A stretch of 37,698 nt of DNA from a virus. Within the stretch, counting starts at the first letter, position 1; every line of letters begins with the position of its first letter. Made by a program: the position numbers and the translations under genes. The notes under the pieces are model-generated. The model was not told where the DNA came from, searched no databases, and was given only the letters and a program-made list of their open reading frames with translations. Of this stretch, positions 1,607-19,069 are shown piece by piece. Location of the stretch: positions 1 to 37,698 of the IMG/VR virus record IMGVR_UViG_3300012209_000327; one strand, written 5' to 3'.

Positions 1607-2283
1607 GTACTGCCTTAGCCATTATGGCACATCCAGACGATGCAGAAGTGCTTGCCGGGGGATTGTTGTCTTTCTGGGTAGAAGAAGGGTACGAGATTTA
1701 TTTTGTGATTTGTACTGATGGTGGGAGTGGTGGTGTCTGGAGTGCTCAGGACGTAGGAGAAAAAGCACGAAAACACATCATAGAAACACGTAAGATTGAG
1801 CAGGATGTAGCAGGGAGTATTTTAGGTGTGAAAGGTGTGACGTATTTGGATTATCCTGATGGGTTACTGGAACCATCTCTGGAACTACGGAAAGATATTG
1901 TCACAGCAATACGCCTATACCGACCAGAACGAATCATCTGTCCATCTTCAGAATTGAATTGGAACACTGCTTTCCTCTTCAATCATCCTGATCATCTGGC
2001 ATGTGGAAAAGCGGTACTTTCTGCTTTCTACCCTTCATCTGGCAATGCCTGGGATTTTCCTGATTTGCTAGAGGAAGGATTGAAACCGCATACCGTAGCA
2101 GAGTTGTATATTGCCAATGCCCCTTTTCCTAACTGGTATTTTCATCTGTCTGAAGAGCGTATGAAACAAAAAGAATCTGCCATCATGGCACATCTGAGTC
2201 AGTTTGAACAGAAACCAGAGTTTGTTAACCAGGTAACTACCTGTTACGCTGAAGAGTATCATAAGGTGGTGAGATGGGAATAA
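1603..2283 (+). CDS. PIG-L/LmbE-type deacetylase
   Basis: 226 aa from the ATG at 1603, chosen because it overlaps the previous stop as ATGA; an upstream GTG at 1573 is less likely. The protein opens with AIMAHPDDAEV: the AHPDD motif (residues 9-13) supplies zinc ligands and the catalytic Asp in the PIG-L family, and a second His motif, NHPDHLACG, lies near residue 130. Members remove N-acetyl groups from GlcNAc-containing substrates such as GlcNAc-PI, mycothiol or bacillithiol precursors, or antibiotic sugars. Beside ParB/PP-loop genes and a downstream bank of glycosyltransferases, deacetylation of a sugar on DNA or of a nucleotide sugar is a reasonable inference. It overlaps the next gene by 10 bases. 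Confidence 0.88.
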   Translation: MSTALAIMAHPDDAEVLAGGLLSFWVEEGYEIYFVICTDGGSGGVWSAQDVGEKARKHIIETRKIEQDVAGSILGVKGVTYLDYPDGLLEPSLELRKDIVTAIRLYRPERIICPSSELNWNTAFLFNHPDHLACGKAVLSAFYPSSGNAWDFPDLLEEGLKPHTVAELYIANAPFPNWYFHLSEERMKQKESAIMAHLSQFEQKPEFVNQVTTCYAEEYHKVVRWE

Positions 2284-3554
2284 AAGATAAATATTTTGAT
2301 ACTCCAGAAGAAGCTATAAAATACATCACGTCACGTCCACCTCGGACCTACTTTGCTAATTCTTCTGAAAAAACAGTTCTTGACCTGGCATATGAACGTA
2401 TCTATCGAGCATATGAACTATTCGACACCATTGCCGTAGGATTTAGCGGGGGGAAGGACTCGACAGCCTGTTTTAATCTCACGCTAAAAGTTGCACAAGA
2501 CTTGAACAAATTACCGCTTCACGTCTTTTTTTGGGATGAGGAAGCAATTCCCTACCAAACAGAAAACTACGTGCGCCGTGTTGCAAAAATACCAGAAATA
2601 CGTTTTCGTTGGTTCTGTCTTCCAGTAAAACATAGAAATGCATGTTCTCGAAATTATCCCTACTGGTCGCCGTGGGACCCGGCCTGTCAAGAATTATGGG
2701 TACGTTCAATGCCACCTGAAGCTACTACCTATCTCAAAGGATTTCCCATGGGTGGAGAACCAGGGGACCGTTTAAGTATTCCTGATTCAGATGGACTGCT
2801 CTACCCTCCCGGAGAGTTTGGCAATGTTGGTTTAATTATGGGGATTCGAGCACAGGAAAGTATGATCCGTCGTAGTGCAGTACTCCGAAGAAAAGAAGAA
2901 AACTACATTATGACCACCAATAACAATAAGACCAATCCAGGCAATGTATTCAAGGTCTATCCTATCTACGATTGGACTGATAATGATGTCTGGACAGCTC
3001 CAGTAAAGCTTGGATGGGACTACAACGAAGCATATGATGTTTTGACACAAGCAGGTATAGATCCACATAACCAACGGTGTTCCCCCGCCTTTGGTGAAGA
3101 ACCAATGGAAGGATTTGACAGGTTTAAAACCTGTTTTCCTGAAATATGGGGAAAAATGACCATGCGTGTTCCTGGTGCCAATGCTGCTGTAAGATATGCC
3201 AAGACTGAATTGTGGGGATATAATGAGCCAATTCAAAAACCAGATGGAGTAAGCTGGCAAGAGCATATCGCACAACTTATCGAGAAATTTCCAGAAGATG
3301 AACGCTGGCATGTGGCATCCAATATTCGTATGCTAATCAATCGGCATTATGGCAAAACAACTGATCCTATTCTCCCATATACTGCACATCCACTCACTGG
3401 TATGTCCTGGAAATATCTGGCAAGTATGGCCGTACGGGGGGACTTCAAGGAACGTAGAAGGTTCGGAGTTGCCAATAAAATCGCGAAATCAGAAGAGAAA
3501 TATCTGAATCGGTGGGAAAAATATTGCCAGGAACGAGAGAAAGAAGGACTCTAA
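2274..3554 (+). CDS. PAPS-reductase-like protein, IbrA/DUF3440-like
   Basis: 426 aa with the PP-loop FSGGKDST at residues 57-64, followed by a long family-specific region rich in Trp/Tyr/Pro, the repeated IMGIRAQES motif used for nucleotide binding in this group, and YPIYDWTDNDVW near residue 235. The length and features match IbrA-like phosphoadenosine phosphosulfate reductase family proteins, which normally pair with a ParB-domain partner (IbrB). Such a partner, ParB2, follows immediately, although it is disrupted at its start. The start overlaps the end of the deacetylase gene, so the four genes from 1 to 3554 look like one translational unit. The reaction is unknown; involvement in DNA base or nucleotide modification is inferred from context only. 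Confidence 0.82.
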   Translation: MGIKDKYFDTPEEAIKYITSRPPRTYFANSSEKTVLDLAYERIYRAYELFDTIAVGFSGGKDSTACFNLTLKVAQDLNKLPLHVFFWDEEAIPYQTENYVRRVAKIPEIRFRWFCLPVKHRNACSRNYPYWSPWDPACQELWVRSMPPEATTYLKGFPMGGEPGDRLSIPDSDGLLYPPGEFGNVGLIMGIRAQESMIRRSAVLRRKEENYIMTTNNNKTNPGNVFKVYPIYDWTDNDVWTAPVKLGWDYNEAYDVLTQAGIDPHNQRCSPAFGEEPMEGFDRFKTCFPEIWGKMTMRVPGANAAVRYAKTELWGYNEPIQKPDGVSWQEHIAQLIEKFPEDERWHVASNIRMLINRHYGKTTDPILPYTAHPLTGMSWKYLASMAVRGDFKERRRFGVANKIAKSEEKYLNRWEKYCQEREKEGL

Positions 3555-8170: not shown

Positions 8171-8921
8171 GGGAAGAGCGGAAACAATATCCACTCCAAA
8201 AGTGTTGGATACTGTAGGTATTCCTTATACCTTTGTTCTTGAGCAACAAGAATATGAAGCATATCGCCACCACTTTCCACAGTCTCCCGTGGTGGTCTTG
8301 CCGGAATCACACAAGGGCATTGCATATGTGAGAAATTGGCTTCTTCAGTATGCAGCACAGCAAGGGCATACGTGGTACTGGATGATGGATGATGATATTC
8401 GAGGATTCTGGAAAGTGGAGCGGGGGGAGTATGTTCCTGCTGATGCAACAGTATTACTTGGTGCTGAAAAAGCCACGACCTGGGAAAATATCGTTCAGGT
8501 TTCTTTATGCACGAAATGGAAATCTGGACCAGCTAGAAAAGATCAGTATGTTTTAAATACGGACTGTTCTCGCGTCGTGTGTCAGCAAGCACAAATACTT
8601 TCGAAGTTTGCTGAATACTGCCCGGACCTTCCCCTATTTTCTGATGCGGATTTCACATTGCAGGCTCTTCATCGTGGATATCAAACAGTGACCTGGCAAA
8701 CATATGCGCAGTATACCTATTTCTGTGGTTCGAACAAGGGTGGATTGCATGAGACATATCGATCAGAAGATTTGCTTTTGTGGGCAGAGAAACTTCGTAG
8801 CCGTTGGGGAAAAGATATTGTGAAGATCAGGAAAAATAATGTTGGGAAACTTCGGCCGGACGTTCAGTGGAATTATTTTTCGGAAGGAGTAAAACGTGTA
8901 TCCGGTATACATCCCAAGTAA
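8145..8921 (+). CDS. TET-associated-type glycosyltransferase, copy 2
   Basis: 258 aa from ATG 8145, chosen because the family start (MYPIYIVSKGR) begins exactly there and GGGAG lies 10 bases upstream; it overlaps copy 1 by 26 bases. It keeps YWMMDDDIRGFWK as the metal site and GGLHETY near the end. The late acidic motif is SDADFTLQALHRGY instead of the EDTDM-type motif of copies 1 and 3, the most divergent version of this site. It may therefore differ in sugar, acceptor or activity. It overlaps copy 3 by 26 bases, preserving tight coupling. Confidence 0.78.
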   Translation: MYPIYIVSKGRAETISTPKVLDTVGIPYTFVLEQQEYEAYRHHFPQSPVVVLPESHKGIAYVRNWLLQYAAQQGHTWYWMMDDDIRGFWKVERGEYVPADATVLLGAEKATTWENIVQVSLCTKWKSGPARKDQYVLNTDCSRVVCQQAQILSKFAEYCPDLPLFSDADFTLQALHRGYQTVTWQTYAQYTYFCGSNKGGLHETYRSEDLLLWAEKLRSRWGKDIVKIRKNNVGKLRPDVQWNYFSEGVKRVSGIHPK

Positions 8922-9630
8922 AGGACGTGCGGAAACGGCTACTACTCCAAAGCTTCTTGAACAGGTAAATATTCCATACACTCTAGTTGTGGAACAGCAA
9001 GAAGCAAGAGACTATATAAAACATTTTCCAAATGCTCGTGTGACGGTACTGAATGAAAGTCATCGAGGAATTGCTTATGCAAGAAATGCTATCCTTGAGT
9101 ATGCGCGTTCAGATCATCCTGGTTGGTATTGGATGATTGACGACGACATTAAGCAGTTTTACAGACTACAGGACACTATATTTTTGAACGATACTGCACG
9201 AGTACTGGAAGATGTTGAAAAACTAGTAAATCAACATCAACGTCTTGCACAGGCAACGATTGGAAGAAAGAACCGTACAAAACAGAAACTTCCACTTTGT
9301 TGGAATGTAAGTTGTTGTGGATGTGTTTGTAACCATGCCGACCGGGTTGGAACCTATCGAGAACATGTGCAAGAAGATACGGATATGAGTCTCCAGGTGG
9401 TGAGTGCTGGATATATGACAGTGCAATTCAATCACATTGTGCTCTCTACTCCATTACGTGGTCAAAATACGGGGGGGTTGCAGGAAGCGTATGCCAGAAA
9501 AGATCCGCTTGAATGGTCCCAAAATCTTGTAAATATCTGGGGTTCTGCTATTTGTCGCATAAAAAAGACGAAAAGTGCTGTCAAAGTCCATGTGAACTGG
9601 GATTATTTTCCTAGCCCGTTGGAGAAATAA
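8896..9630 (+). CDS. TET-associated-type glycosyltransferase, copy 3
   Basis: 244 aa from GTG 8896 with GGAAGGAG just upstream inside copy 2. All family motifs are present: YPVYIPSKGRAETATTPKLL, VVEQQEARDY, LNESHRGIAYARN, YWMIDDDIKQFYR, the VCNHADR strand, QEDTDMSLQVVSAGY and GGLQEAYARKDP. It is one of the two copies closest to the family consensus. Like the others it lacks a signal peptide or membrane segment, consistent with a cytoplasmic enzyme acting on phage DNA or its precursors. Confidence 0.8.
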   Translation: MYPVYIPSKGRAETATTPKLLEQVNIPYTLVVEQQEARDYIKHFPNARVTVLNESHRGIAYARNAILEYARSDHPGWYWMIDDDIKQFYRLQDTIFLNDTARVLEDVEKLVNQHQRLAQATIGRKNRTKQKLPLCWNVSCCGCVCNHADRVGTYREHVQEDTDMSLQVVSAGYMTVQFNHIVLSTPLRGQNTGGLQEAYARKDPLEWSQNLVNIWGSAICRIKKTKSAVKVHVNWDYFPSPLEK

Positions 9631-9633
9631 AAT

Positions 9634-10353
9634 ATGATACCGCTCTATATTCCGACAAAAGGAAGATGGGACACTGCAACAACTCCAGCATTACTTGGAT
9701 CATATCCATATATTCTGGTGGTGGAAAAACAGGAAGAGCGGAATTATCGGGAAATTTTTCCTTCCACGGAAATTCTTGTGCTACCGGAATCTAACCAGGG
9801 TATAGCCTATGCCAGAAATTATATCAATCAACAAGAGTCCGAATGGTATTGGATGCTGGATGACGATCTTACCGGTTTGTATCGAAAAGGGGTTACTGGG
9901 AAATACAAGAAAGCAGACGGGTCTATTCTTCATGAGATGGAAAAATATCTCAATAATCAGATAGCACAGATGGGCCTGGTACTCCCCCGGTGGAAAGTTA
10001 GTCAAGATCTTTCGTGGAATAAAACATGTGGATGCATTGTCTGCAATCATGCAGGAAAACTAAGAGAGATTGGAGTTTCTTATAGACAAGGTGTTCCTGT
10101 CGATACAGATATGACACTGCAAATTTTAACTTCAGGCTATCGTACATTACGTCTTTCCAATTATGCCTTTACTATTCCACCACATGGAAGTAATAAAGGC
10201 GGTCTGTATGAAGTATATGCAAGTGGCGAAAAGAATCAGTGGCTTCTCAACTTTCAACAATACTGGGGAAAAGAACTGGTTACTTTAAAAAGAGGAAAAC
10301 AAGGAAAGATGTCTGCAAGAGTACATCTTGAAATGTTTATGGTAGAAAGTTAG
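9634..10353 (+). CDS. TET-associated-type glycosyltransferase, copy 4
   Basis: 239 aa from ATG 9634, three bases after copy 3 ends, with GGAG upstream. Motifs: IPLYIPTKGRWDTATTPALL, VVEKQEERNY, LPESNQGIAYARN, YWMLDDDLTGLYR, IVCNHAG, VPVDTDMTLQILTSGY, GGLYEVYASGEK. It is slightly shorter in the central part than the others. It ends the + strand modification block; a 285-base non-coding stretch separates it from the large terminase. Confidence 0.8.
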   Translation: MIPLYIPTKGRWDTATTPALLGSYPYILVVEKQEERNYREIFPSTEILVLPESNQGIAYARNYINQQESEWYWMLDDDLTGLYRKGVTGKYKKADGSILHEMEKYLNNQIAQMGLVLPRWKVSQDLSWNKTCGCIVCNHAGKLREIGVSYRQGVPVDTDMTLQILTSGYRTLRLSNYAFTIPPHGSNKGGLYEVYASGEKNQWLLNFQQYWGKELVTLKRGKQGKMSARVHLEMFMVES

Positions 10354-10638: not shown

Positions 10639-13368
10639 ATGGTAGTGACTGCGGAACAATTTCAAAATTATAGAACATTTGCCAATCTTTCAAAAGAAGA
10701 GAAATATCAGTTCATTGAAGGATTGAACGATGAAGAATCTCTGCAACTGAAATTCACCTGGGAAGCATGGGCACGTGACAAACAACTAGAACCACCTGGC
10801 GATTGGTGGAGTACCTGGCTCATACTTGCAGGCAGAGGATTCGGAAAATCGAGAACTGGCGCAGAATGGATTAGAAAACAGGTAGAAGCAGGAAGATACG
10901 GTAGAATTGCCATAGTTGGAAGAACAGCAGCAGATGTAAGAGATGTCATGCTGTATGGTGAGTCTGGGCTAGTTACAAATAGCCCTCCCTGGTTTATGCC
11001 GAAACATGAGGGAACACGTAGAAGACTCGTATGGCCGAACGGCGCTATTGCCACAACGTATAGTGCCGAGGAACCTAATTCAATGCGCGGACCGCAGCAC
11101 GACGCTGCCTGGTGTCTGGTAGGACATACTCTTGTCCTGATGTCTGACGGAACAGAAAAACCAATAGCAGAAATTCGTGTAGGAGATTACGTTCAAACCA
11201 GGTTAGGAGCCAAACGAGTAACCGGAAGCTCATTAATGGAAAAGAATACTAAGGTGTACCTACTACGTACCATGGACGGAAGAAATCTAGTAGGAACAGC
11301 CTCTCATAAGGTTTGGGAGACTGAAAAGGGGTTTATTCCCTTAGCATCTTTTTCAGAAGGAATGAACGTATGTGTGACGCATGCATCGAATTGGACGGCT
11401 ACATCTGGCATAAACGTGCCAGCAGAGACTACTACGAAAGACGCATCTTGTTGCACCGTTATGTTTGGGAACAAACGTACGGAAAAATACCAGAAGGATA
11501 TCATATCCATCACAGAAATGAAGATAAGACGGATAACCGACTGGAAAATTTGGAATTGCTTACACATGGGGAACACAGTTCTCTGCACTATTCAAGACTG
11601 GCTCCCTATAAAGAAAAAGCCTGGGCTAACGCTAAGAAATCAATGGATGAGAATAAGCACTTACGTATGCAGCGTGTCCTCACTTGTACCTATTGTGAGA
11701 AGGCATTCCATAGCCCTTCGGCCCACCCGACTAGTTTCTGTTCATCGGCCTGCGTTGAGGCTTACAGGTCAGGGGCTTTCAGGGGGGAGGTTAGGTTGTG
11801 CGAGTACTGCGGTGAGGAATATACAGCTACGAAGAGAGCACAGTTATACTGCTCGAAAAAGTGTAACGGGAGAGCTTCCGCACAGAGAGCCGGACAACTC
11901 GTGGTTCAATCAATCACCTGTGATTACTGCCAAAAAGTGTTTGAGTCGAAGAGAGCAAATGCTCGGTTCTGCTGTGATGGTTGCGCCAAAGCTTTCCACG
12001 CAACCAATCGTTACCGTAAAAAGATTAAAGAAAACTTATGATGTCTACGATATAACAGTTGAGGATGCCCATGAGTTTTTTGCAAATGGCATCCTCGTTC
12101 ATAACTGTGACGAAATATGTTTAACTGCGGGTTCCCAGGTGCTTACTTCGGAAGGTGAAAAACCGATTGAAGGTATTGTACCTGGGGATCTTATTTTAAC
12201 TAGGGTGGGTTTTAAAAGGGCGACTACAGCAGGGTGTACAAGTAAAAACTCCACTGTATCCCTTCTCCAGCTTTCTACTGGAAGATCTATTATGGGTACC
12301 GCGTCTCATCCAATATGGGTCCAGGGAAAAGGATTCTCTCCATTGGGAACTCTCCGGCCTGGGGATATTTTAATAGATGAGCAGAGTTCTGAAGTTTCCT
12401 GTGTTTCAGTAGCGAAACTTCATAATAAAATGGCAGTCTTTAACTTGGAGGTAGAGGACTGCCATGAGTATTTTGCAAACGGAATACTTACGCATAACTG
12501 TGCGTGGCGCACCTCAGATTCGCTAGATCAGCTTTTGCTCGGCCTCCGTCTCGGACCTCATCCACGTGTCATACTCACTACCACCCCCCGTCCAACGAAA
12601 GAGATCAAACAACTTGTCAAAATGAGTACGACCTATGTCACCAATGGGACTACTTATGAAAATCGTGATAATCTTGCCCAGATGTTCTTTGATCAAGTTA
12701 TTCGTAAGTTCGAAAACAGTCGCCTTGGACGCCAAGAACTACTAGCTCAATTATTGGATGATGCAGAAGGGGCATTATGGAAACGTGAAGCCATGATTGA
12801 GCAGTATCGTGTTGTGAAAGCTCCAGATCTGGTACGTGTAGTGGTTGGTGTGGACCCGGCAACAACATCTGAAGAAGATTCTGATGAGACTGGTATTGTT
12901 GTGGCAGGTCGTGGTGCTGATGGTCACTTGTATATTCTCGATGATCTTTCATTACGTGGCAGTCCTCAAGAATGGGCTACACAGGCTGTTACTGCTTACT
13001 ACAAATATCAGGCTGATCGCATTATTGGAGAATCTAACCAGGGTGGAGATATGGTAGAGAATACGATCAGGATGGTTGACAGATATGTGGCCTACAAGAA
13101 GGTTCATAGTAAGCGGGGGAAGTACGCTCGTGCTGAACCAGTTGCCGCATTGTATGAACAGGGGAGAGGTCATCATGTTGGCATGTTCCCTGAACTTGAG
13201 GATCAACTTTGTTCGTGGGAACAAGGTGTAGCAGAGTCGCCGGATCGTCTAGATGCTCTTGTTCATGCTGCAACTGAACTCATGTTAGAAGGATATAGTG
13301 GAGATGGTGGTGTAATCACCATGTCTTCACTCAATATTCCGGGTGACGAGTTCAACCCATTCTGGTAA
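10639..13368 (+). CDS. Terminase large subunit precursor with two inteins
   Basis: 909 aa precursor; removing two inteins leaves about 451 aa, normal for a large terminase. Exteins: Walker A LAGRGFGKSRTGAEW (about 63-77), YSAEEPNSMRGPQHDAAW before intein 1, then CDEI, intein 2, then CAWRTSDSLDQLLLGLRLG and the ATPase coupling motif TTTPRPTK. Joined, WCDEICAW forms Walker B with the catalytic Glu. The C-terminal RNase H-like nuclease begins at VVGVDPATTSEEDSDETG, with further acidic positions at IGESNQGGD and SPDRLDALVHA. The protein cuts and pumps DNA into the prohead as part of the packaging motor. Splicing of both inteins is needed to restore the ATPase site. Confidence 0.95.
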   Translation: MVVTAEQFQNYRTFANLSKEEKYQFIEGLNDEESLQLKFTWEAWARDKQLEPPGDWWSTWLILAGRGFGKSRTGAEWIRKQVEAGRYGRIAIVGRTAADVRDVMLYGESGLVTNSPPWFMPKHEGTRRRLVWPNGAIATTYSAEEPNSMRGPQHDAAWCLVGHTLVLMSDGTEKPIAEIRVGDYVQTRLGAKRVTGSSLMEKNTKVYLLRTMDGRNLVGTASHKVWETEKGFIPLASFSEGMNVCVTHASNWTATSGINVPAETTTKDASCCTVMFGNKRTEKYQKDIISITEMKIRRITDWKIWNCLHMGNTVLCTIQDWLPIKKKPGLTLRNQWMRISTYVCSVSSLVPIVRRHSIALRPTRLVSVHRPALRLTGQGLSGGRLGCASTAVRNIQLRREHSYTARKSVTGELPHREPDNSWFNQSPVITAKKCLSRREQMLGSAVMVAPKLSTQPIVTVKRLKKTYDVYDITVEDAHEFFANGILVHNCDEICLTAGSQVLTSEGEKPIEGIVPGDLILTRVGFKRATTAGCTSKNSTVSLLQLSTGRSIMGTASHPIWVQGKGFSPLGTLRPGDILIDEQSSEVSCVSVAKLHNKMAVFNLEVEDCHEYFANGILTHNCAWRTSDSLDQLLLGLRLGPHPRVILTTTPRPTKEIKQLVKMSTTYVTNGTTYENRDNLAQMFFDQVIRKFENSRLGRQELLAQLLDDAEGALWKREAMIEQYRVVKAPDLVRVVVGVDPATTSEEDSDETGIVVAGRGADGHLYILDDLSLRGSPQEWATQAVTAYYKYQADRIIGESNQGGDMVENTIRMVDRYVAYKKVHSKRGKYARAEPVAALYEQGRGHHVGMFPELEDQLCSWEQGVAESPDRLDALVHAATELMLEGYSGDGGVITMSSLNIPGDEFNPFW
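11113..12105 (+). other. Intein 1 in TerL, carrying an HNH gene out of frame
   Basis: Residues 159-489 of the precursor (331 aa). The start is Cys (CLVGHTLVLMSDGTEKPI) with block B GTASHKVW (TxxH). The end is DITVEDAHEFFANGILVHN followed by Cys, giving the standard His-Asn/Cys splice junction. The middle, about residues 245-455, has no intein or endonuclease similarity in the TerL frame because this DNA encodes the HNH protein at 11370-12041 in another frame. The intein frame nevertheless lacks stops, so the splicing domain should be translated with a long spacer. Confidence 0.9.
11370..12041 (+). CDS. HNH endonuclease encoded in another frame inside intein 1
   Basis: 223 aa from ATG 11370, with AGAAGGA at 11355-11361. 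RYVWEQTYGKIPEGYHIHHRNEDKTDNRLENLELLTHGEHSSLH is summarised by its key parts: IHHRNEDKTDNRLENL is the HNH core (HH, N, N), and LTHGEHS closes the site, typical of phage HNH homing nucleases. Three Cys-rich fingers follow: CTYCEKAFHSP, CEYCGEEYTA with CSKKC, and CDYCQKVFES. The gene sits at frame offset +2 relative to the terminase frame, so both frames are open over 224 codons. It likely drives homing of intein 1 but is made as a separate protein rather than as part of the intein. Confidence 0.88.
   Translation: MCDACIELDGYIWHKRASRDYYERRILLHRYVWEQTYGKIPEGYHIHHRNEDKTDNRLENLELLTHGEHSSLHYSRLAPYKEKAWANAKKSMDENKHLRMQRVLTCTYCEKAFHSPSAHPTSFCSSACVEAYRSGAFRGEVRLCEYCGEEYTATKRAQLYCSKKCNGRASAQRAGQLVVQSITCDYCQKVFESKRANARFCCDGCAKAFHATNRYRKKIKENL
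12118..12498 (+). other. Mini-intein 2 in TerL
   Basis: Residues 494-620 of the precursor (127 aa), only four extein residues (CDEI) after intein 1. It starts CLTAGSQVLTSEGEKPIEG, has block B GTASHPIW, and ends NLEVEDCHEYFANGILTHN followed by Cys. It lacks any endonuclease domain, near the minimum size for an autonomous splicing domain. It is clearly homologous to intein 1 in blocks A, B, F and G, suggesting both derive from a common ancestor or one arose by a jump to a neighbouring Cys codon. Confidence 0.9.
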
Positions 13369-13701: not shown

Positions 13702-13980
13702 CTAGTTGAATTTTGCGATGACGTATTCGGCCAGTTCTGGGCTTATTTTGTGTATACCTTGTATGCGCCTGTTGCGGAACGATTGTTTGAAATCTTTAAG
13801 AATGTCGTATACTTTTTGCGAAAATAGCAACATGACTTTTTCTTTTGCTACCTGGTCAAGCGTCGAAAGCTTGTTGACAATCACAGAATTTGGTGCATCG
13901 AGAAAAATGTCAGCAATGGCATTTTCGTCTGAACCTGCTTTTTTAAGAAGTTTCGAAACTCTTCTTTCTTCTGATGTCAT
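13702..13980 (-). CDS. Small helical protein, last gene of the operon
   Basis: 92 aa. ATG 13980 is preferred over 14004 because AAGAAAGGA lies just before it. Predicted all-helical: TSEERRVSKLLKKAG, LDQVAKEKVMLLFSQKVYDIL and a C-terminal ISPELAEYVIAKFN. The SPELAE segment resembles VSSELAERLIDELNA of the gene at 15739, so it belongs to the helical class of this cluster. It is preceded by its own promoter (14039-14067) and followed by a strong terminator. Function unknown; possibly an early regulator or host-interaction protein. Confidence 0.8.
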   Translation of the reverse strand: MTSEERRVSKLLKKAGSDENAIADIFLDAPNSVIVNKLSTLDQVAKEKVMLLFSQKVYDILKDFKQSFRNRRIQGIHKISPELAEYVIAKFN

Positions 13981-14038
13981 GATTTTTTGTCCTTTCTTGA
14001 ACAACCAGCGAACTAAAATTTATTTATCTTGTATGAAT

Positions 14039-14067
14039 ACTATAGCATACTTTTACAGTTTTGTCAA
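14039..14067 (-). promoter_or_regulatory. sigma70 promoter upstream of 13980 gene
   Basis: On the - strand: -35 TTGACA (14062-14067), 17-base spacer, -10 TATAGT (14039-14044). It matches five similar - strand promoters in this window. Confidence 0.85.
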
Positions 14068-14117
14068 TCATATTTTCGTGAGTTTTCACGCTACTTTAAA
14101 ACCTCATGAACGCTGTT

Positions 14118-14303
14118 CTACCAGGGTATTTCCCATACTCCGTAGCACACTTTTCGAACAGTTCGTATTCCTATTATTTCTCCGAGTTGTACCTGGCCGA
14201 AGAATAGTCCGAATGGATCTTCATAGATGTTCCCGACTGTCATACTTGGCAAGAAAATGGTATGCGTTCTGTCGAGATAGATGGTTTGTGTTACTTCTCT
14301 CAT
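14118..14303 (-). CDS. Small beta-module protein
   Basis: 61 aa from ATG 14303, with AAAGGA at 14314-14319. It is a stand-alone version of the beta module found through this block: TQTIYLDRTHTIFLP, VGNIYEDPFGLFFGQ, and the closing VCYGVWEIPW. It aligns in order with the gene at 16533 (TILDKHRTIYQDNVEVVHIW) and with that at 22659. No Cys pair, membrane segment or enzyme motif. Function unknown. Confidence 0.75.
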   Translation of the reverse strand: MREVTQTIYLDRTHTIFLPSMTVGNIYEDPFGLFFGQVQLGEIIGIRTVRKVCYGVWEIPW

Positions 14304-14320
14304 GGTGTGATAGTTCCTTT

Positions 14321-14638
14321 CTATTCGGCTATTTCCCAATCGCGATGATCGAGCAGAACAACATCCTTGTTTCCGTACTGGCCGATCGTTATTCCATATT
14401 TCGAAATGACGTTTGTGATAGTTACACCGCTATAGAGTGGATGCCTTTTCTCGTTGACGATCTGCTGGTTTTCTCTGTCTTCCTGCTTGAACTTGTTCCA
14501 TGTAATGAGAATGGTCAGAATCTTCAGAGCTGCCTCCTTGTCAGTTCTATCTTCAGAAAGGATACCCACCCAGTTCTCACGGGGGAGGTTGGCGAGTTGG
14601 ATAATTTTGTAGGCTGCTTCTCTAGTGAGATTTTTCAT
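14321..14638 (-). CDS. Small helical plus beta-module protein
   Basis: 105 aa with AAAGGAA 10 bases before ATG 14638. The N-terminal half is helical (AAYKIIQLANLPRENW, KEAALKILTILITWNKF). The C-terminal half is the beta module: QQIVNEKRHPLYSGVTITNV, ISKYGITIGQYG, VVLLDHRDWEIAE, ending in the Trp-x-Ile signature. The KEAALKILTIL stretch resembles TEAALKIITLILQGEK in the neighbour at 14657, so the two are paralogues. Leu and Ser codons here avoid TTA, CTA and TCA, keeping the antisense + frame open. Function unknown. Confidence 0.8.
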   Translation of the reverse strand: MKNLTREAAYKIIQLANLPRENWVGILSEDRTDKEAALKILTILITWNKFKQEDRENQQIVNEKRHPLYSGVTITNVISKYGITIGQYGNKDVVLLDHRDWEIAE

Positions 14639-14656
14639 GATACTTATTTTCCTTTC

Positions 14657-14968
14657 TTAGCGAACCAGTTCCCATGTTCCATCTTCACAGAGATACACGC
14701 CTTCTTCAGCGTGAATACCGATGGTCATTCCGTGAAGTGTAATAATATCAGTCACCCATCCATCCTTGTCGAGAAGACGGTCGTTGTACATGATCGTCTG
14801 AACACCTTTCCAATCTGGAAGTTTTTCCCCCTGGAGAATAAGAGTGATAATCTTCAGAGCAGCTTCAGTGTTGAATTGCTTCAAGTATTCGAAACGCTTT
14901 GCCTCATCCATGGATCTGGCACGAACAGCATGGAAACGGAGCAAGTTAAAGGTTTTTATGGTCTGCAT
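14657..14968 (-). CDS. Small helical plus beta-module protein
   Basis: 103 aa, ATG 14968 preceded by AAGAAAGG. Helical N-domain (AKRFEYLKQFNTEAALKII) and beta module (VQTIMYNDRLLDKDGWVTDI, LHGMTIGIHAEEGVYLCEDGTWELVR). It has the same order as the 14321 gene: helix with EAALKI, then Q-x-I strand, hydrophobic-Gly-hydrophobic-x-Ile-Gly turn, then Gly-Thr-Trp-Glu-Leu. Function unknown; regulated with its neighbours from the upstream promoter at 15437. Confidence 0.8.
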   Translation of the reverse strand: MQTIKTFNLLRFHAVRARSMDEAKRFEYLKQFNTEAALKIITLILQGEKLPDWKGVQTIMYNDRLLDKDGWVTDIITLHGMTIGIHAEEGVYLCEDGTWELVR

Positions 14969-14985
14969 GTTTTGAATTACCTTTC

Positions 14986-15384
14986 TTATTTGAGGCCGCT
15001 ATTTTCCATAAGCATTTCGAATACACGGACAACCGTCTCGTGGCCGAATGTATCCAGGTCTTTAAGATGTGCAAATGCCTGTTCTGGAGTGGACCACTTG
15101 AGATTGCGGAATGTATACCTGGCACAGAACTCGATCCACACTTTGTTAGCAAATTCTTCGTTGGTTGACTTGAGAGCCTTCATAATCTCAACATGGTCCT
15201 GGTCAGGTGGTACTGCTTCGAATTTCTCCACGACAAGCTTTTTAACAATTGGAAGTATGTTTGCGGATGCATCTGGAAAGTCCTGTTCCCACATGCTAAC
15301 GCTTCGACCAATCTCCGGCCATGATTGGCTAACAATTTCTTGTGCTCTTTTCTGCTCATCTGAAATGTTCTTTTTGCTTCTCAT
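14986..15384 (-). CDS. Small helical protein
   Basis: 132 aa. ATG 15384 is chosen because AAGAAAGG lies 11 bases before it; the longer frame from 15441 lacks a ribosome site and overlaps the promoter. All-helical and highly charged: KNISDEQKRAQEIVSQSWPEIG, ANILPIVKKLVVEKFEAV, and PEQAFAHLKDL near the C-terminus with VVRVFEMLMENSG, which resembles AVRVMEMLQKG in the 15739 product. It lacks the beta module. First gene after an internal promoter. Function unknown. Confidence 0.78.
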   Translation of the reverse strand: MRSKKNISDEQKRAQEIVSQSWPEIGRSVSMWEQDFPDASANILPIVKKLVVEKFEAVPPDQDHVEIMKALKSTNEEFANKVWIEFCARYTFRNLKWSTPEQAFAHLKDLDTFGHETVVRVFEMLMENSGLK

Positions 15385-15436
15385 CTTTTTGAAATACCTT
15401 TCTTGCTTGACTGTTTTGTATGTATCTTGTAAGTCA

Positions 15437-15465
15437 ATCATAACATATTTTTACAAATTTGTCAA
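15437..15465 (-). promoter_or_regulatory. sigma70 promoter upstream of 15384 gene
   Basis: On the - strand: TTGACA (15460-15465), 17-base spacer, TATGAT (15437-15442). The leader contains ACAGTCAAG shortly before the ribosome site, shared with the leaders of the 17014 and 22883 genes. Confidence 0.85.
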
Positions 15466-15505
15466 GCAATATTCCACTGGATTTACAGGCTTTGGAAAAA
15501 CTCGT

Positions 15506-15742
15506 TTAGTGCAGGCCCAGGTGGGAAATGACCTCGTCGCAAAAGGTGGCACCACAGAATTGTTCCAATTCGCGATAGATGCGCAGACGTTTGGAATACA
15601 TGGAAAGGCCTTGAAATTCACCGCTCGTTCTGAAGATGCTGGCTATATTGGAAACGGAATTGCAATGGCTCCCTGCATTGAGAATGGTCGAATAGATGGT
15701 TTCCCTGGAAAGAGACAGACGTTCAACGAATTGCTTTTTCAT
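15506..15742 (-). CDS. Small protein of unknown function
   Basis: 78 aa, with AAAGGA 10 bases before ATG 15742; its start overlaps the stop of the next gene upstream. Mixed helical sequence (RETIYSTILNAGSHCN, YSKRLRIYRELEQFCGATFCDEVI) with three Cys and two His but no clear zinc-finger spacing. It shows no obvious relation to the helical or beta modules around it. Confidence 0.7.
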   Translation of the reverse strand: MKKQFVERLSLSRETIYSTILNAGSHCNSVSNIASIFRTSGEFQGLSMYSKRLRIYRELEQFCGATFCDEVISHLGLH

Positions 15743-16107
15743 GACTGTATCGTTCCTTTCTGCAACATCTCCATAACTCTTACAGCCTGTTTTCTTGGCA
15801 TGTATATAATCGCGTTGAGAGCCTCTTCTGGCTTAAAGCTTTTGAGGATGTTGGTATATACACGCCTGGCATTCAACTCGTCAATAAGGCGTTCTGCAAG
15901 CTCTGAGGAAACCTGGTCGATCAGACACATTTTGGAGACTCTGTTAGTGAATGGAACATCTTCTAACAGATTCACCAGGTATCCCCAGAGTCTCTTGGCG
16001 AGGTCTTTATCCTCTGTCTGTTCAGTTTCAAGGAGCATTTTCGCCTTCTTGCTAAAGGTCAAGCTGAAAAATTTTTCGGTGATCTTTTGCTGTTCTGTCT
16101 TTTCCAT
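15739..16107 (-). CDS. Small helical protein
   Basis: 122 aa from ATG 16107 with AGGGAG upstream. All-helical, very charged: QKITEKFFSLTFSKKAKMLL, KDLAKRLWGYLVNLLEDV, SSELAERLIDELNARRV and FKPEEALNAIIYMPRKQAV RVMEML in the last third. The PEEAL and VRVMEML segments recall the 14986 product, indicating a paralogous helical fold. No beta module. Function unknown. Confidence 0.78.
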   Translation of the reverse strand: MEKTEQQKITEKFFSLTFSKKAKMLLETEQTEDKDLAKRLWGYLVNLLEDVPFTNRVSKMCLIDQVSSELAERLIDELNARRVYTNILKSFKPEEALNAIIYMPRKQAVRVMEMLQKGTIQS

Positions 16108-16120
16108 GACTTCATCTCCC

Positions 16121-16474
16121 TTATCTTTCTATTCTCCAGACATTATTCTCGACATGGATAACGTTGTGATGCTGTGCCATACAGTAGACCTCTCCGAACA
16201 TGACAGTTCCCTTTTTAGTGATGGCGAAAACATGTTGTCCTGCATTGCCTTTTCCATCTATCGGATCAACAATGATTTGCTCTCTTCGATCATCGGCATC
16301 GTTTTGATGGCCTTCCAGGATGATAGCGAATATTCTCAGACCCATTTTATCCATACCGGACAGCCTCTCGATCAATTCCTCTTGTGGCAGGTCCCGGTAT
16401 TCCATAACCATGCAAGCAATGATTTGTGCTTCGCTTGTCAGGTGCTTTGGAATGTTTGGATAATTGTTGGACAT
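16121..16474 (-). CDS. Small helical plus beta-module protein
   Basis: 117 aa. ATG 16474 follows AAAGGAA; the frame continues upstream to 16573 but those codons have no ribosome site. Helical N-domain (TSEAQIIACMVMEYRDL, GLRIFAIILEGHQND) and beta module (REQIIVDPIDGKG, VFAITKKGTVMFGEVY, NVIHVENNVWRIER). It ends with the Trp-Arg-Ile form of the signature. A GC-rich inverted repeat lies just upstream at 16499-16524. Function unknown. Confidence 0.8.
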   Translation of the reverse strand: MSNNYPNIPKHLTSEAQIIACMVMEYRDLPQEELIERLSGMDKMGLRIFAIILEGHQNDADDRREQIIVDPIDGKGNAGQHVFAITKKGTVMFGEVYCMAQHHNVIHVENNVWRIER

Positions 16475-16498
16475 AGTAGATTTCCTTTCTCTTTGCAA

Positions 16499-16524
16499 CG
16501 GGGGGAAGTACCACACCTCCCCCG
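16499..16524 (-). other. Intercistronic hairpin
   Basis: Inverted repeat CGGGGGGA at 16499-16506 and TCCCCCG at about 16518-16524, lying between the stop of the 16533 gene and the ribosome site of the 16474 gene. It lacks a T tract, so it may be an RNA-processing or stability element rather than a terminator. Confidence 0.5.
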
Positions 16525-16532
16525 TCATATCA

Positions 16533-16754
16533 TTAAATATCGAATACCCAGGTGTCATCTGAGAACAGTACAACGGCTACAAAGGATATTCCTTCAGGCC
16601 AGATTTCCAGATCGGATGGTTTTGTTACGACAATTTTGGCATTTCCACACGGACGACCACGATAGTTTTCCCAGATGTGAACAACTTCTACATTGTCTTG
16701 ATAGATGGTACGATGCTTATCGAGAATGGTCTGATGTAGCTTGGTTTTTGACAT
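16533..16754 (-). CDS. Small stand-alone beta-module protein
   Basis: 73 aa with AAAGGAA 8 bases before ATG 16754. Sequence blocks QTILDKHRTIYQDNVEVVHI, WENYRGRPCGNAKIVV and the end LFSDDTWVFDI. The gene at 22659 (TVLNFDANAIYAENVQVVNI, GYSCGYALV, NNKWAVDL) is a close paralogue in a separate operon, showing this module has been copied between blocks. Function unknown. Confidence 0.78.
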   Translation of the reverse strand: MSKTKLHQTILDKHRTIYQDNVEVVHIWENYRGRPCGNAKIVVTKPSDLEIWPEGISFVAVVLFSDDTWVFDI

Positions 16755-16777
16755 GGTCCTGGTTCCTTTCTGGAAGA

Positions 16778-17014
16778 TTAAGCGTAAAACTGAATACCGA
16801 GAAGATCTGCAACTATGTGACCATAATTGAGATTGGCACTACCCTTGTACATTCTCCTCAGGTAGGAAGCCTGTTCGCTTTCCGGGTCATTCATGAAGAA
16901 GTAGTTGTTGGACAACTGGATAGCATGATTGATAGCGGCCTCTTCACGCATCTTGTGATGTTGCTCGGCAAGTCTACTGGCCTCTTCATAGGTCATGGAT
17001 GTTGGTGTGATCAT
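16778..17014 (-). CDS. Small helical protein
   Basis: 78 aa, ATG 17014 preceded by AAAGG. Predicted helical throughout: TYEEASRLAEQHHKMREEAAINHAIQL, then ESEQASYLRRMYKG and a C-terminal YGHIVADLLGIQFYA, summarised in pieces. First gene after a perfect-consensus promoter (17066-17094). Function unknown. Confidence 0.78.
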   Translation of the reverse strand: MITPTSMTYEEASRLAEQHHKMREEAAINHAIQLSNNYFFMNDPESEQASYLRRMYKGSANLNYGHIVADLLGIQFYA

Positions 17015-17065
17015 GGTGTGATACCTTTCTTTTACTTGACTGTATTTGTTTTTCTTGTTACGTCA

Positions 17066-17094
17066 AGTATAGCATATTTTACTATAATTGTCAA
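17066..17094 (-). promoter_or_regulatory. Perfect sigma70 promoter upstream of 17014 gene
   Basis: On the - strand: TTGACA (17089-17094), 17-base spacer, TATACT (17066-17071). The leader carries ACAGTCAAG before the ribosome site, as at two other promoters. Confidence 0.9.
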
Positions 17095-17133
17095 GCAAAT
17101 ATTCATGAAATATGCAGGTGCGAAAAAATCTTT

Positions 17134-17469
17134 TTATTTCACCCCAAAAAGAAGAAATATTACTGTCTGGAATCCGTTCCAATTCTTTCGGCGGAAAGAG
17201 AAGCGACTGCTTAATGTATCGATGATTTCATGGGAAAATGTTGGGTGTACTTTCTGTATTTCAACCAGCATGGAAATACGCTTGAGAACGTTCACTCTTT
17301 CCAGTTCTGGGATCATCTCTTTGAGTAAGTATGGAGCAACTTCGGCTGCAAGCATTGGATCGGTCTTTTCCAGCTTTAGCAGATCTTTTGCAATAGTAGC
17401 GTATGATTCTGCCAGCCAGATGCAGGAAATATCTTCCGCATCTGGATTGGAATTTTGTGAACGCAGCAT
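17134..17469 (-). CDS. Small helical protein
   Basis: 111 aa. The frame runs to 17694, but ATG 17469 is the likely start since AAAGAAGAAA precedes it and the upstream part overlaps the neighbouring gene. Helical: DISCIWLAESYATIAKDLLK, LAAEVAPYLLKEMIPEL, RISMLVEIQKVHPTFSHEII. It resembles the helical class of the operon. No beta module. It ends 40 bases before the promoter at 17066-17094. Function unknown. Confidence 0.72.
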   Translation of the reverse strand: MLRSQNSNPDAEDISCIWLAESYATIAKDLLKLEKTDPMLAAEVAPYLLKEMIPELERVNVLKRISMLVEIQKVHPTFSHEIIDTLSSRFSFRRKNWNGFQTVIFLLFGVK

Positions 17470-17482
17470 GATTTTCTTCTTT

Positions 17483-17785
17483 CTAGGCAACCAGTCTCCA
17501 TACACAGCCATACATATGGAAAACGTGCTGGTCCTGAAACTGACCGATCTCCGAATCTCCATATACTCGAATATTCGTAATAGCGGAACAAATCGAGTAC
17601 AGACCTCCATGAACACCTTGAATAATCTGGATTTTCTGATCTGTCCGAGACTCTCCATTGAGCAGCAGGTTGAGTACCTCATCGGATTCATCAATAGTCA
17701 TTCTGTCCTGGTTCTTCATGATTTCTGCTGCTCTTTTGGCAATTTTCTGTTGTTTCGTAAGTGGCAGGACTCTTTCTTGAATCAT
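17483..17785 (-). CDS. Small helical plus beta-module protein
   Basis: 100 aa from ATG 17785 with AGGAGA upstream. Helical N-domain (TKQQKIAKRAAEIMKNQDRM, DEVLNLLLNGE) and beta module (QKIQIIQGVHGGLYS, AITNIRVYGDSEIGQFQ, HVFHMYGCVWRLVA). The module matches those at 14321 and 14657 (I-x-x-YG-x-x-x-IG followed by a closing Trp). Function unknown. Confidence 0.8.
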   Translation of the reverse strand: MIQERVLPLTKQQKIAKRAAEIMKNQDRMTIDESDEVLNLLLNGESRTDQKIQIIQGVHGGLYSICSAITNIRVYGDSEIGQFQDQHVFHMYGCVWRLVA

Positions 17786-17797
17786 GGTTTTCTCCTA

Positions 17798-18112
17798 CTA
17801 CCGGATTTTCCAGTAGTTGTCTCGAACATGCACAACATTGTAGTATTTTCCACCAAGATAACATTGTCCGGTAGTTGGATCATCCAGATGTGTTACTCCA
17901 CTAATCTTGTAGATCAGAACGTGGTCGAAGAAGAATTTTCCGTTGGTTCGGAGTACTACCTGGCGAATACGGCAATGGTCAAGCGCATCTTGAACAGCAA
18001 GAGCAAGATCCCTGTTACGAAGAACCAATGCTCGAAGCCTGACAATCTGATCGGCATAGGGAAGTGGAGAAACCACTTCCAACATTTCGCGAACTTCTTT
18101 TGTGGTGACCAT
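17798..18112 (-). CDS. Small helical plus beta-module protein
   Basis: 104 aa with AAGGAA before ATG 18112. N-domain TTKEVREMLEVV, ADQIVRLRALVLRNRDLALA and VQDALDHCRI; C-module RQVVLRTNGKFFFDHVLIYK, GQCYLGGKYYNVVHVRDNYWKIR. The N-domain aligns with those of the genes at 18128 and 18689 (D-x-x-hydrophobic, VAL/VLRN, ELA pattern), and the end NYWKIR is almost the same as SYWKIV at 18128. Function unknown. Confidence 0.82.
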   Translation of the reverse strand: MVTTKEVREMLEVVSPLPYADQIVRLRALVLRNRDLALAVQDALDHCRIRQVVLRTNGKFFFDHVLIYKISGVTHLDDPTTGQCYLGGKYYNVVHVRDNYWKIR

Positions 18113-18127
18113 GATTATTTCCTTAAA

Positions 18128-18448
18128 CTAGACGATTTTCCAGTAACTTCCACGGATATGGATAACCGCATACGCAATGTCGAAAGCATGAATCGTACCG
18201 TACGTAACACCTGCTCTATTCGTACCGATGTGATAGACCAGAAACCGATCTTTGGATGGTTCCTTGAACAATCTTCCGTCCTTAGAAACCATTTGACTGA
18301 CCATACAAACCAGCAACTCTTTTCGAACCTGTACAACAAGTTCCGGCTGACGAAACGCGACCTGGTTGAATACAGCCTCTCGATCACTTTGTGTGAGGAG
18401 AACTACTGTTTCCAGCAGTTCCCTGATCTCGAAACACTTTACAGGCAT
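18128..18448 (-). CDS. Small helical plus beta-module protein
   Basis: 106 aa with AAAGGAGA before ATG 18448. N-domain EIRELLETVVLLTQSDREAV, FNQVAFRQPELVVQVRKEL; C-module SQMVSKDGRLFKEPS, FLVYHIGTNRAGVTYGTIHA, YAVIHIRGSYWKIV. It is a paralogue of the next gene downstream (17798-18112) along its whole length. Function unknown. Confidence 0.82.
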   Translation of the reverse strand: MPVKCFEIRELLETVVLLTQSDREAVFNQVAFRQPELVVQVRKELLVCMVSQMVSKDGRLFKEPSKDRFLVYHIGTNRAGVTYGTIHAFDIAYAVIHIRGSYWKIV

Positions 18449-18460
18449 ACTAGTTCTCCT

Positions 18461-18664
18461 TTAGATGGCCTTCCAGCAACCTGGTGCCCAACAGATAACG
18501 GGAACTTTTACGGCTCTGGTGAGGAAGAATACCCCAACAGTTTGGCTGTCTCCACGTACCGTTACTTTTTCCACAGGATAATGGGAATACAGTCTGGAAC
18601 CGACCATAATGGTCTGGTTTATAAGTGTGTCGATAGGTTGTGGCTTTGTGGTTCTTGTGATCAT
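18461..18664 (-). CDS. Small stand-alone beta-module protein
   Basis: 67 aa, ATG 18664 preceded by AAAAGGAA. Sequence DTLINQTIMVGSRLYSHYPV, KVTVRGDSQTVGVFFL and the closing ICWAPGCWKAI. It lacks a helical N-domain and appears to be a more diverged member of the beta-module family. Function unknown. Confidence 0.75.
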   Translation of the reverse strand: MITRTTKPQPIDTLINQTIMVGSRLYSHYPVEKVTVRGDSQTVGVFFLTRAVKVPVICWAPGCWKAI

Positions 18665-18688
18665 GATAATTTTCCTTTTCTTTTGAAA

Positions 18689-18877
18689 CTACTGAACTTG
18701 TGCGGATATCTGGTTACGAATACGCAGGATGTCCGTACATCTCGCTGCATACTTTGGGTTGGTCAGAGCCACCTGATAGAGTATCTCCTTTTGATCGTCA
18801 TTGGAGAGGTCTTCCAGGTTGTGGATAAATTGTGCAAGCTGTACTTCTGCCAGGATTCTGGTTTGCTGAGTGACCAT
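18689..18877 (-). CDS. Small stand-alone helical-domain protein
   Basis: 62 aa from ATG 18877 with AAGGAG upstream. The segment SNDDQKEILYQVALTNPKYA followed by ARCTDIL aligns with the N-domains of the 18128 product (SDREAVFNQVAFRQPELV) and the 17798 product, so this gene is that helical domain without its beta module. Good evidence for modular shuffling in this operon. Function unknown. Confidence 0.78.
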   Translation of the reverse strand: MVTQQTRILAEVQLAQFIHNLEDLSNDDQKEILYQVALTNPKYAARCTDILRIRNQISAQVQ

Positions 18878-18889
18878 GAGTATGTCTCC

Positions 18890-19069
18890 TTACTTTTTGA
18901 TGGATAATCGAACAGAAATAACGAGATATTCGATAGTGGTTGGAACCTGCTGGCAAGATAGAGCTGATCGACAGAGAGAAAACAATACATTTAAGGAGGT
19001 GCCAGTGGGAGATGCGATGGCCCCTATGTATACGAATGCGTAGGCTAGTCTGGTGATGTCATCGTACAT
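18890..19069 (-). CDS. 59-aa first gene of the operon
   Basis: ATG 19069 is preceded by AAGAAAGG at 19078-19085 and lies 51 bases downstream of a consensus promoter; the frame ends at TAA 18890-18892, just before the ribosome site of the next gene. The product begins MYDDITRLAYAFVYIGAIAS and has a hydrophobic stretch (about residues 9-32), so it may be membrane-associated, with three Cys near the middle. It resembles no other gene here. Function unknown. Confidence 0.7.
   Translation of the reverse strand: MYDDITRLAYAFVYIGAIASPTGTSLNVLFSLCRSALSCQQVPTTIEYLVISVRLSIKK

Follow-up and report, generated by a model that had tools for sequence, protein, structure and literature searches.

Adjacent inteins at the Walker B motif of a phage terminase and an out-of-frame HNH gene that recurs within related inteins

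The virus record IMGVR_UViG_3300012209_000327, analysed here over its whole length of 37,698 bases and referred to as the window, carries tailed-phage genes, including those for a terminase, a portal and an SU10-like major head protein. The precursor of the large terminase subunit (TerL) is encoded by terL (10639-13368, + strand), recognised from the list of open reading frames (ORFs) and from Pfam/NCBIfam profiles, as a single ORF of 909 aa, of which 451 aa remain once two inteins are subtracted. Intein 1 (331 aa; 11113-12105, +) lies in the TerL frame at the site W/CDE, the slash marking the junction, and consists of two HINT blocks (~11113-11382 and ~12013-12105) joined by a disordered linker. 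It is followed by an extein tetrapeptide, Cys-Asp-Glu-Ile (CDEI; 12106-12117, +), which forms the core of the Walker B motif, and then by intein 2 (12118-12498, +), a mini-intein of 127 aa without an endonuclease, inserted at the site DEI/C with its +1 Cys at 12499-12501 (+). Nested out of frame within intein 1 is a gene for an HNH endonuclease of 223 aa with zinc-finger-like Cys pairs (ATG at 11370 to TGA at 12041, +; HNH_3).

The TerL ORF matches the profiles Terminase_6N (8e-14), Terminase_6C (4.5e-19) and Intein_splicing (1.1e-15), as well as intein_Nterm (TIGR01445, 9.7e-6) and, over two stretches, intein_Cterm (TIGR01443, 8.9e-15). Class 1 inteins are characterised by an N-terminal Cys, a TxxH motif in block B, a penultimate His, a terminal Asn and a +1 Cys. 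This set is complete in both elements, namely C1, GTASH and VHN/C in intein 1, and C1, GTASH and THN/C in intein 2, and structure comparison showed that the predicted models of both have the HINT fold. In the AlphaFold2 model of intein 1, the two HINT parts reach predicted local distance difference test (pLDDT) scores of 95-97, while the ~190 residues between them are disordered, with block means of 38-68; the model matches the DnaB mini-intein (E 4e-6). The model of intein 2 displays a complete HINT fold (mean pLDDT 90), and its best match among solved structures is the gp41-1 intein (E 7.5e-15). Aligned with intein-less homologues, precise removal of both inteins restores a normal host protein, as the extein-only TerL is gap-free at Walker B and 52-55% identical to its four closest homologues. 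The host gene is not broken into two ORFs, as expected of a split intein in a fractured gene, but is one ORF throughout. On the basis of motifs and models, both elements are thus probably class 1-type inteins that flank the Asp-Glu pair of Walker B, and both are predicted to splice. An earlier note, made from the letters of the window, had described two inteins four residues apart in this motif, each starting with Cys and ending with His-Asn before a Cys; its coordinates, lengths and motifs proved exact, and its view that both would have to splice is supported by the anatomy, the motifs and the predicted folds.

The 11 intein-less homologues aligned over the site all carry the Walker B Asp/Glu-Glu pair without an insert. 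Three of them (L009, L016 and L023; L numbers denote the surveyed sequences) have WCDE, so that the +1 Cys of intein 1 is a natural residue at this position. At site 2, the +1 position is occupied by Ala in nine and by Gly in two of the 11. In two further terminases, L210 (DELCAW) and L211 (DEMCKW), site 1 is occupied by an intein while site 2 is empty and has a native Cys, showing that an allele suited to receive intein 2 occurs naturally.

The HNH gene is read in the +2 frame relative to TerL, a frame that stays open for 238 codons within intein 1. Its ORF matches Pfam HNH_3 (PF13392, 1.9e-18), has an intact HNH motif and retains the conserved HNH and Cys residues; a sequence search of solved structures gave no match up to E 0.1. 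A Shine-Dalgarno-like AGAAGGA (11355-11361, +; duplex energy -5.7) is located 8 nt 5' of the ATG. An endonuclease in the intein's own frame between blocks B and F, as in an ordinary large intein, is not what this locus holds. While the length of 331 aa previously given for intein 1 stands, its description as such a large intein does not, as ~190 of its residues are an out-of-frame reading of the HNH gene, which the earlier note had overlooked.

The same arrangement is found in more than 100 other sequences, most of them viral. Among collected phages, Tetrasphaera phage TJE1, which has the single-intein form, carries a terminase gene with matches to the window intein and, in another frame, to the HNH. 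Acinetobacter phage Highwayman was matched via its HNH, its intein being recognised upon reading the locus; both records annotate only a terminase there. Scans of viral and genome contigs enlarged the set to 209 sequences, which were searched with profile hidden Markov models of the N block, the C block and the HNH. The survey sets were the best 80 of 439 and the best 80 of 527 scan matches, mostly ranked by similarity to the window, and the window itself (L001) was excluded from the main count. This main survey yielded 171 N-C pairs, of which 152 are continuous with an HNH, eight are continuous without one (intein 2, L203, one in L135 and five pairings in L207 and L208) and 11 are broken by stops or frame changes. 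In every one of the 152 continuous HNH-bearing inteins (132 distinct), the HNH lies at +2 and never in frame. Removal of exact duplicates left 132 open elements, among them the window, TJE1 and Highwayman, and 10 broken ones; exact duplicates were likewise counted once in the shuffle, start-site, codon-position and HNH-tree analyses. One scan (A2) ranks by similarity to the window intein, overlap included, and therefore favours the same frame. In the A1 scan, which ranks by the HNH alone, 46 of 55 distinct N-HNH-C elements are open. In addition, a third set was drawn without ranking by a DNA pattern for one splice motif (64 loci; six of the 64 contigs were, by name, already in the earlier sets). 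Its 60 N-C pairs comprise 38 open with the HNH at +2, one open at +1 (L263), six broken with an HNH, and seven open and eight broken without one; the +2 layout thus holds for 38 of the 39 open HNH-bearing inteins. Across the surveyed sets, an in-frame HNH was never seen in a continuous intein, and in three broken elements (L117, L121 and L155) the HNH is in frame with the N block but not with the C block.

Two further arrangements were observed during the survey. L115, L129 and L197 hold two inteins in one ORF at separate sites, each bearing its own out-of-frame HNH. Three tandem HINT-like domains, 2-4 residues apart (HN/KG-C), are found at L207:3593-4909 and L208:3404-4558 in contigs titled Lentisphaerae; they were rejected as triple tandem terminase inteins, being intein-like domains ending in HN/KG in a glycine-rich protein.

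The insertion site appears to be tracked better by the HNH than by the splicing domain, as would be predicted for the component that selects the target. When the window HNH was compared with 141 others, the nine nearest all came from Walker B inteins (seven W/CDE, two PQ/; 33-54% identity), linking this HNH to one insertion region. Over 137 shared elements, the Walker B site label requires three changes on the HNH tree and six on the splicing-domain tree, and the label for nuclease-motif sites 16 and 22, respectively. Some exchange of HNHs between splicing domains is implied by these trees. The HNH-tree fork holding 13 of the 14 W/CDE rows has a support of 77, under the usual mark, and HNHs interrupted between pieces by a stop or a change of frame, such as L033, were left out of this tree.

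Tree positions and pairwise identities favour a separate arrival of the two inteins. In the 142-row splicing-domain tree, from which L207, L208 and L135 were left out and in which the bootstrap had not settled, intein 1 groups with the W/CDE-site inteins L033-L036 (support 97/82 and 100/88); it is 52-57% identical to these four nearest same-site inteins, most closely to L035 (57%). Intein 2 falls in no supported group, and its nearest relatives are the other-site inteins L198 (53%) and L196 (51%). The jump of one intein to the adjacent Cys codon that the earlier note had proposed is therefore disfavoured. In that case, the two inteins would be sisters, one copy having jumped or been duplicated to the neighbouring Cys codon, and the second copy would subsequently have lost its HNH. 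This appears unlikely, as forced sisterhood costs 28.7 log-likelihood units and sets aside the closer kinship of each intein with elements elsewhere, yet several observations speak for it. The two are separated by 12 bp and share 46% identity in their splicing blocks, HNH segments have been gained or lost among these inteins (L046 and L089, below), and the PQ/-site inteins L037 and L038 are placed beside or within the W/CDE group in both trees, showing that short shifts of site happen. Moreover, in approximately unbiased (AU) tests on 45 of the 142 rows, in a tree where no starred set holds intein 1 or 2, neither sisterhood (p-AU 0.089) nor a position of intein 2 within the seven-row Walker B group of intein 1 (cost 20.6, p-AU 0.174) is rejected at 0.05.

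The rarity that had been claimed for so short an extein between inteins is upheld within the sequences searched, where double occupancy was seen only in the window. As had been suggested, other terminases were checked at both sites, and none of the 14 other TerLs with a W/CDE intein (L030, L033-L036, L051, L062, L082, L114, L115, L129, L199, L210 and L211) carries an intein at site 2. The scan of viral contigs that supplied the third set sought a Cys close behind the C-terminal splice motif of these inteins; at none of its 64 loci was a second intein start detected within 150 nt. The pattern HN-CDE[ILMV]-C returned three loci and no further tandem; L210 and L211 combine a site-1 intein with the native Cys and lack a site-2 intein, and L209 was dismissed as a chance match to the pattern. 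A peptide-pattern scan of viral contigs for intein 1 alone found no relatives, while the alignment-based scans did find them.

The overlap bears marks of constraint. Synonymous codons were shuffled within each HNH, keeping its protein and codon usage, for 132 distinct elements (129 when re-keyed by locus). Under these shuffles, the intein frame stays open with a mean probability of 0.148 (median 0.064), and an average of 2.0 stops is expected where none is observed, while the third frame displays no stop avoidance (16.5 stops observed versus 17.4 expected). For the window, 0 of 400 shuffles were open in the intein frame, with 2.96 stops expected. Free-standing relatives served as a control: 22 of the 79 new loci in the HNH-ranked scan gave no N-C pair, and from these and L006 were drawn 16 HNHs without an intein motif within 1.2 kb, two of them short pieces of ~60 codons. 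None of the 16 is open in the corresponding frame, which contains 4.07 stops per 100 codons versus 0.00 in the inteins. All seven HNH relatives with one or both intein motifs nearby are open, and the 11 broken inteins contain 1 to 12 stops each; openness therefore belongs to the intein context. Between near relatives (16 pairs, not independent), differences at HNH codon positions 1, 2 and 3 number 373, 264 and 759. Since HNH position 3 is codon position 2 of the intein, the HNH protein is the conserved product, and the intein-frame peptide in the overlap seems free apart from the avoidance of stops.

These results bear on whether the HNH frame is instead a decaying fossil, open by chance or linkage and without present function. 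Homing endonucleases are described as decaying after fixation in passages of one report (PMC10643990), and HNH-less or damaged forms occur here as well, namely L089, L203, intein 2 and, with an internal stop, L033. The inteins L046 and L089 (92-94% identity) are distinguished by a segment of 489 nt (163 codons) that includes most of the HNH and is missing from L089, where an HNH remnant persists. Their comparison suggests that an HNH segment was gained or lost, and that a mini-intein can arise through loss of the HNH segment. The window HNH, in contrast, is an intact ORF with its conserved residues in place, and the HNH frame is the more conserved one among relatives, making a fossil quite unlikely.

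For synthesis of the HNH, internal initiation is the better reading of the sequences. Candidate HNH starts have a mean best Shine-Dalgarno duplex energy of -4.53, versus -2.26 (standard deviation 0.20) at matched internal starts, as determined for 134 of 136 elements, the other two having no start candidate. Alternatively, -1 ribosomal frameshifting from the TerL-intein frame could generate a fusion of N-extein, intein N part and HNH, which would explain why the frame of the HNH relative to the intein is nearly invariant at +2 (= -1). While slippery heptamers are slightly most numerous in the productive phase (28 sites versus 22 and 11), a canonical heptamer in that phase is present in only 23 of 132 elements and absent from the window, and the HNH start codons carry Shine-Dalgarno matches above control. 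As heptamers occur in few elements and are barely enriched in the productive phase, general -1 frameshifting was rejected, and this route to the HNH is very unlikely. Finally, an assembly chimera or frameshift error, with the HNH really in frame or only one intein present, is scarcely credible even though the tandem comes from a single record of assembled sequence, as 132 distinct elements including the window, TJE1 and Highwayman have their HNH out of frame in this way, two indels would be unlikely to leave both window frames open throughout the overlap as they are, and long exact DNA repeats between the window inteins are absent (the best match being 52 nt at 77%), so that repeat-driven misassembly is not suggested.

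With a probability of about 0.8, the locus is explained by two splicing inteins and a separately translated, out-of-frame HNH homing gene with which mini-intein 2 hitchhikes. TerL would be made as the 909-aa precursor, which should be inactive until splicing because the two inteins interrupt Walker B. The order of the two splicing events would be free, each compact HINT domain following the class 1 route (Cys1, TxxH, His-Asn, Cys+1), and the mature enzyme would read ...W-CDEI-CAW... after both excisions. The mobility function of intein 1 would reside in the +2-frame HNH gene within the loop between the HINT halves, with translation starting at an internal ribosome-binding site. The intein frame, for its part, would be kept merely stop-free in the overlap so that the ribosome can reach the C-terminal splicing block, and the surplus polypeptide would leave with the excised intein. 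The HNH product would cut insert-less TerL genes at Walker B, and repair would copy intein 1 along with mini-intein 2, which would hitchhike because it lies 12 bp away and is without an endonuclease.

Several points weigh against this explanation. The tandem is known from one virus record, and no contig with intein 2 alone was found that would bear on a history of hitchhiking. The survey sets are mostly ranked by similarity to the window and centred on one intein family, with only the splice-motif set avoiding ranking, and the shuffle test was run on elements selected as open, for which the HNH-ranked scan and the free-standing control act as counterweights. A strong Shine-Dalgarno sequence is not universal, as 45% of the tested HNH starts fall short of a duplex energy of -4. 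In L033, an open same-site relative, the HNH frame contains an internal stop, and at least this HNH is therefore damaged. The splicing-domain tree is built on 116 columns and the HNH tree comes from a quick search, many forks are open, and the three changes versus six are a bare count.

Endonuclease genes outside the intein frame are also seen in other forms. The HNH in the +1 frame of a terminase intein at L263:5698-8220 (- strand) is of another type (PF01844). The intein frame there contains no stops where 7.6 would be expected, with 0 of 1000 shuffles open, and this case is likely an independent origin of the out-of-frame layout. In addition, ORFs for DUF559 nucleases run antisense to open inteins at L247:6721-7488 (- strand) and L272:3230-4243 (+ strand), the host ORF of the latter having a Mu-type portal domain. 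Taken from stop to stop, these antisense ORFs are free of TTA, CTA and TCA codons, an absence with a probability of 0.014 for L247 and 5e-6 for L272 given the codon usage of each locus. Together with the +2 HNH lineage, L263 and the pair L247 and L272 suggest at least three origins of the same solution.

In textbooks, the splicing and endonuclease functions of an intein belong to a single polypeptide, and in large inteins such as mycobacteriophage TerL1-b and -c the LAGLIDADG domains lie in the intein frame. Split inteins, a second kind to which gp41-1 presumably belongs, reportedly flank an endonuclease gene in the 'fractured genes' of Dassa et al. 2009, where the host gene lies in two ORFs and needs trans-splicing. 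As in those genes, the window has a free endonuclease ORF with one half of a HINT domain on each side; however, the host gene is broken there, whereas the window TerL is one read-through ORF. Broken forms of inteins with an out-of-frame HNH do exist, as 10 distinct elements and in the Vibrio phages 1.238.A and 1.245.O (L004 and L005). In these two phages, the terminase is broken around the HNH with the N and C intein halves in separate ORFs, which looks like a split intein; a further Hint-like insert lies near the gene start.

Another comparison is offered by phage ShiLan, for which passages of the report (PMC11855218) describe a zinc-finger HNH encoded out of frame in an insertion, a host frame without stops and a disjunct distribution. 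Its authors detected neither a splicing element nor a ribosome-binding site, and they propose that the insert is retained in the protein and that the HNH has a leaderless internal start (PMC11855218). Phage Applejack is mentioned as a further case of this kind in part of a second report (PMC12613952). The out-of-frame zinc-finger HNH, the stop-free host frame and the proposed internal start are shared with the window, but the window insert is an intein with a Shine-Dalgarno sequence, located in TerL, with a HINT domain flanking the HNH, while ShiLan is described without either feature in those passages (PMC11855218). Inteins with an out-of-frame HNH thus lie between ShiLan and the split inteins of fractured genes, and we found no description of this layout in the literature searched, chiefly at title and abstract level; at the same level, no report was found of two inteins four residues apart.

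Neighbouring or paired inteins as such are known. According to passages on mycobacteriophages (PMC5050341), the TerL1-b and -c inteins lie in the TerL ATPase domain, as the window inteins do, but carry LAGLIDADG domains, in contrast to the window endonuclease in another frame. Sites a and b in mycobacteriophage TerL are one residue apart, and these passages do not report joint occupancy in one phage (PMC5050341). For the neighbouring haloarchaeal inteins MCM-a and MCM-d, two active endonucleases are said, in the part of the report consulted, to hamper co-homing (PMC10643990); the window, in contrast, has only one endonuclease-bearing intein, and this conflict would be avoided because there is a single endonuclease. 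Mic1 TerL has two inteins in different domains (PMC7156551), and a crAss-like TerL has two in one gene (PMC7886860). All three share with the window the presence of two inteins in one gene, and a four-residue spacing is reported for none of them in the passages of these sources (PMC10643990, PMC7156551, PMC7886860).

Elsewhere in the window, a 1733-codon open frame (13706-18907, +) lies opposite a row of minus-strand ORFs, probably as an effect of codon usage. The adjacent ORFs at 8896-9630 and 9634-10353 have similar starts (M.P.YIP.KGR...TATTP.LL) and possibly reflect a tandem duplication. In an 816-aa ORF (27841-30291), a 2'-5' RNA ligase-like domain is joined to a region resembling a head maturation protease, and there are two phosphoadenosine phosphosulfate reductase-like genes (752-1606 and 2274-3554), one with DUF3440.

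An endonuclease held as a separate, overlapping gene removes the need for both parts of an intein to fold together, and the layout hides the endonuclease from annotation, as in TJE1 and Highwayman. It also offers a natural path from an intact to a split intein, as a stop in the intein frame would leave a split intein around a free endonuclease gene, which the broken relatives suggest. Furthermore, these inteins provide well over 100 natural examples of long overlapping genes, with one of the two frames apparently under no constraint other than the avoidance of stops. Phage inteins probably commonly keep their endonuclease gene outside their own frame, as in the +2 HNH lineage (132 distinct elements), the +1 case of L263 and the antisense DUF559 genes of L247 and L272, with the intein frame kept stop-free. 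Two separately expressed genes would then share the same bases, and in the window intein 2 would ride along in each homing event.

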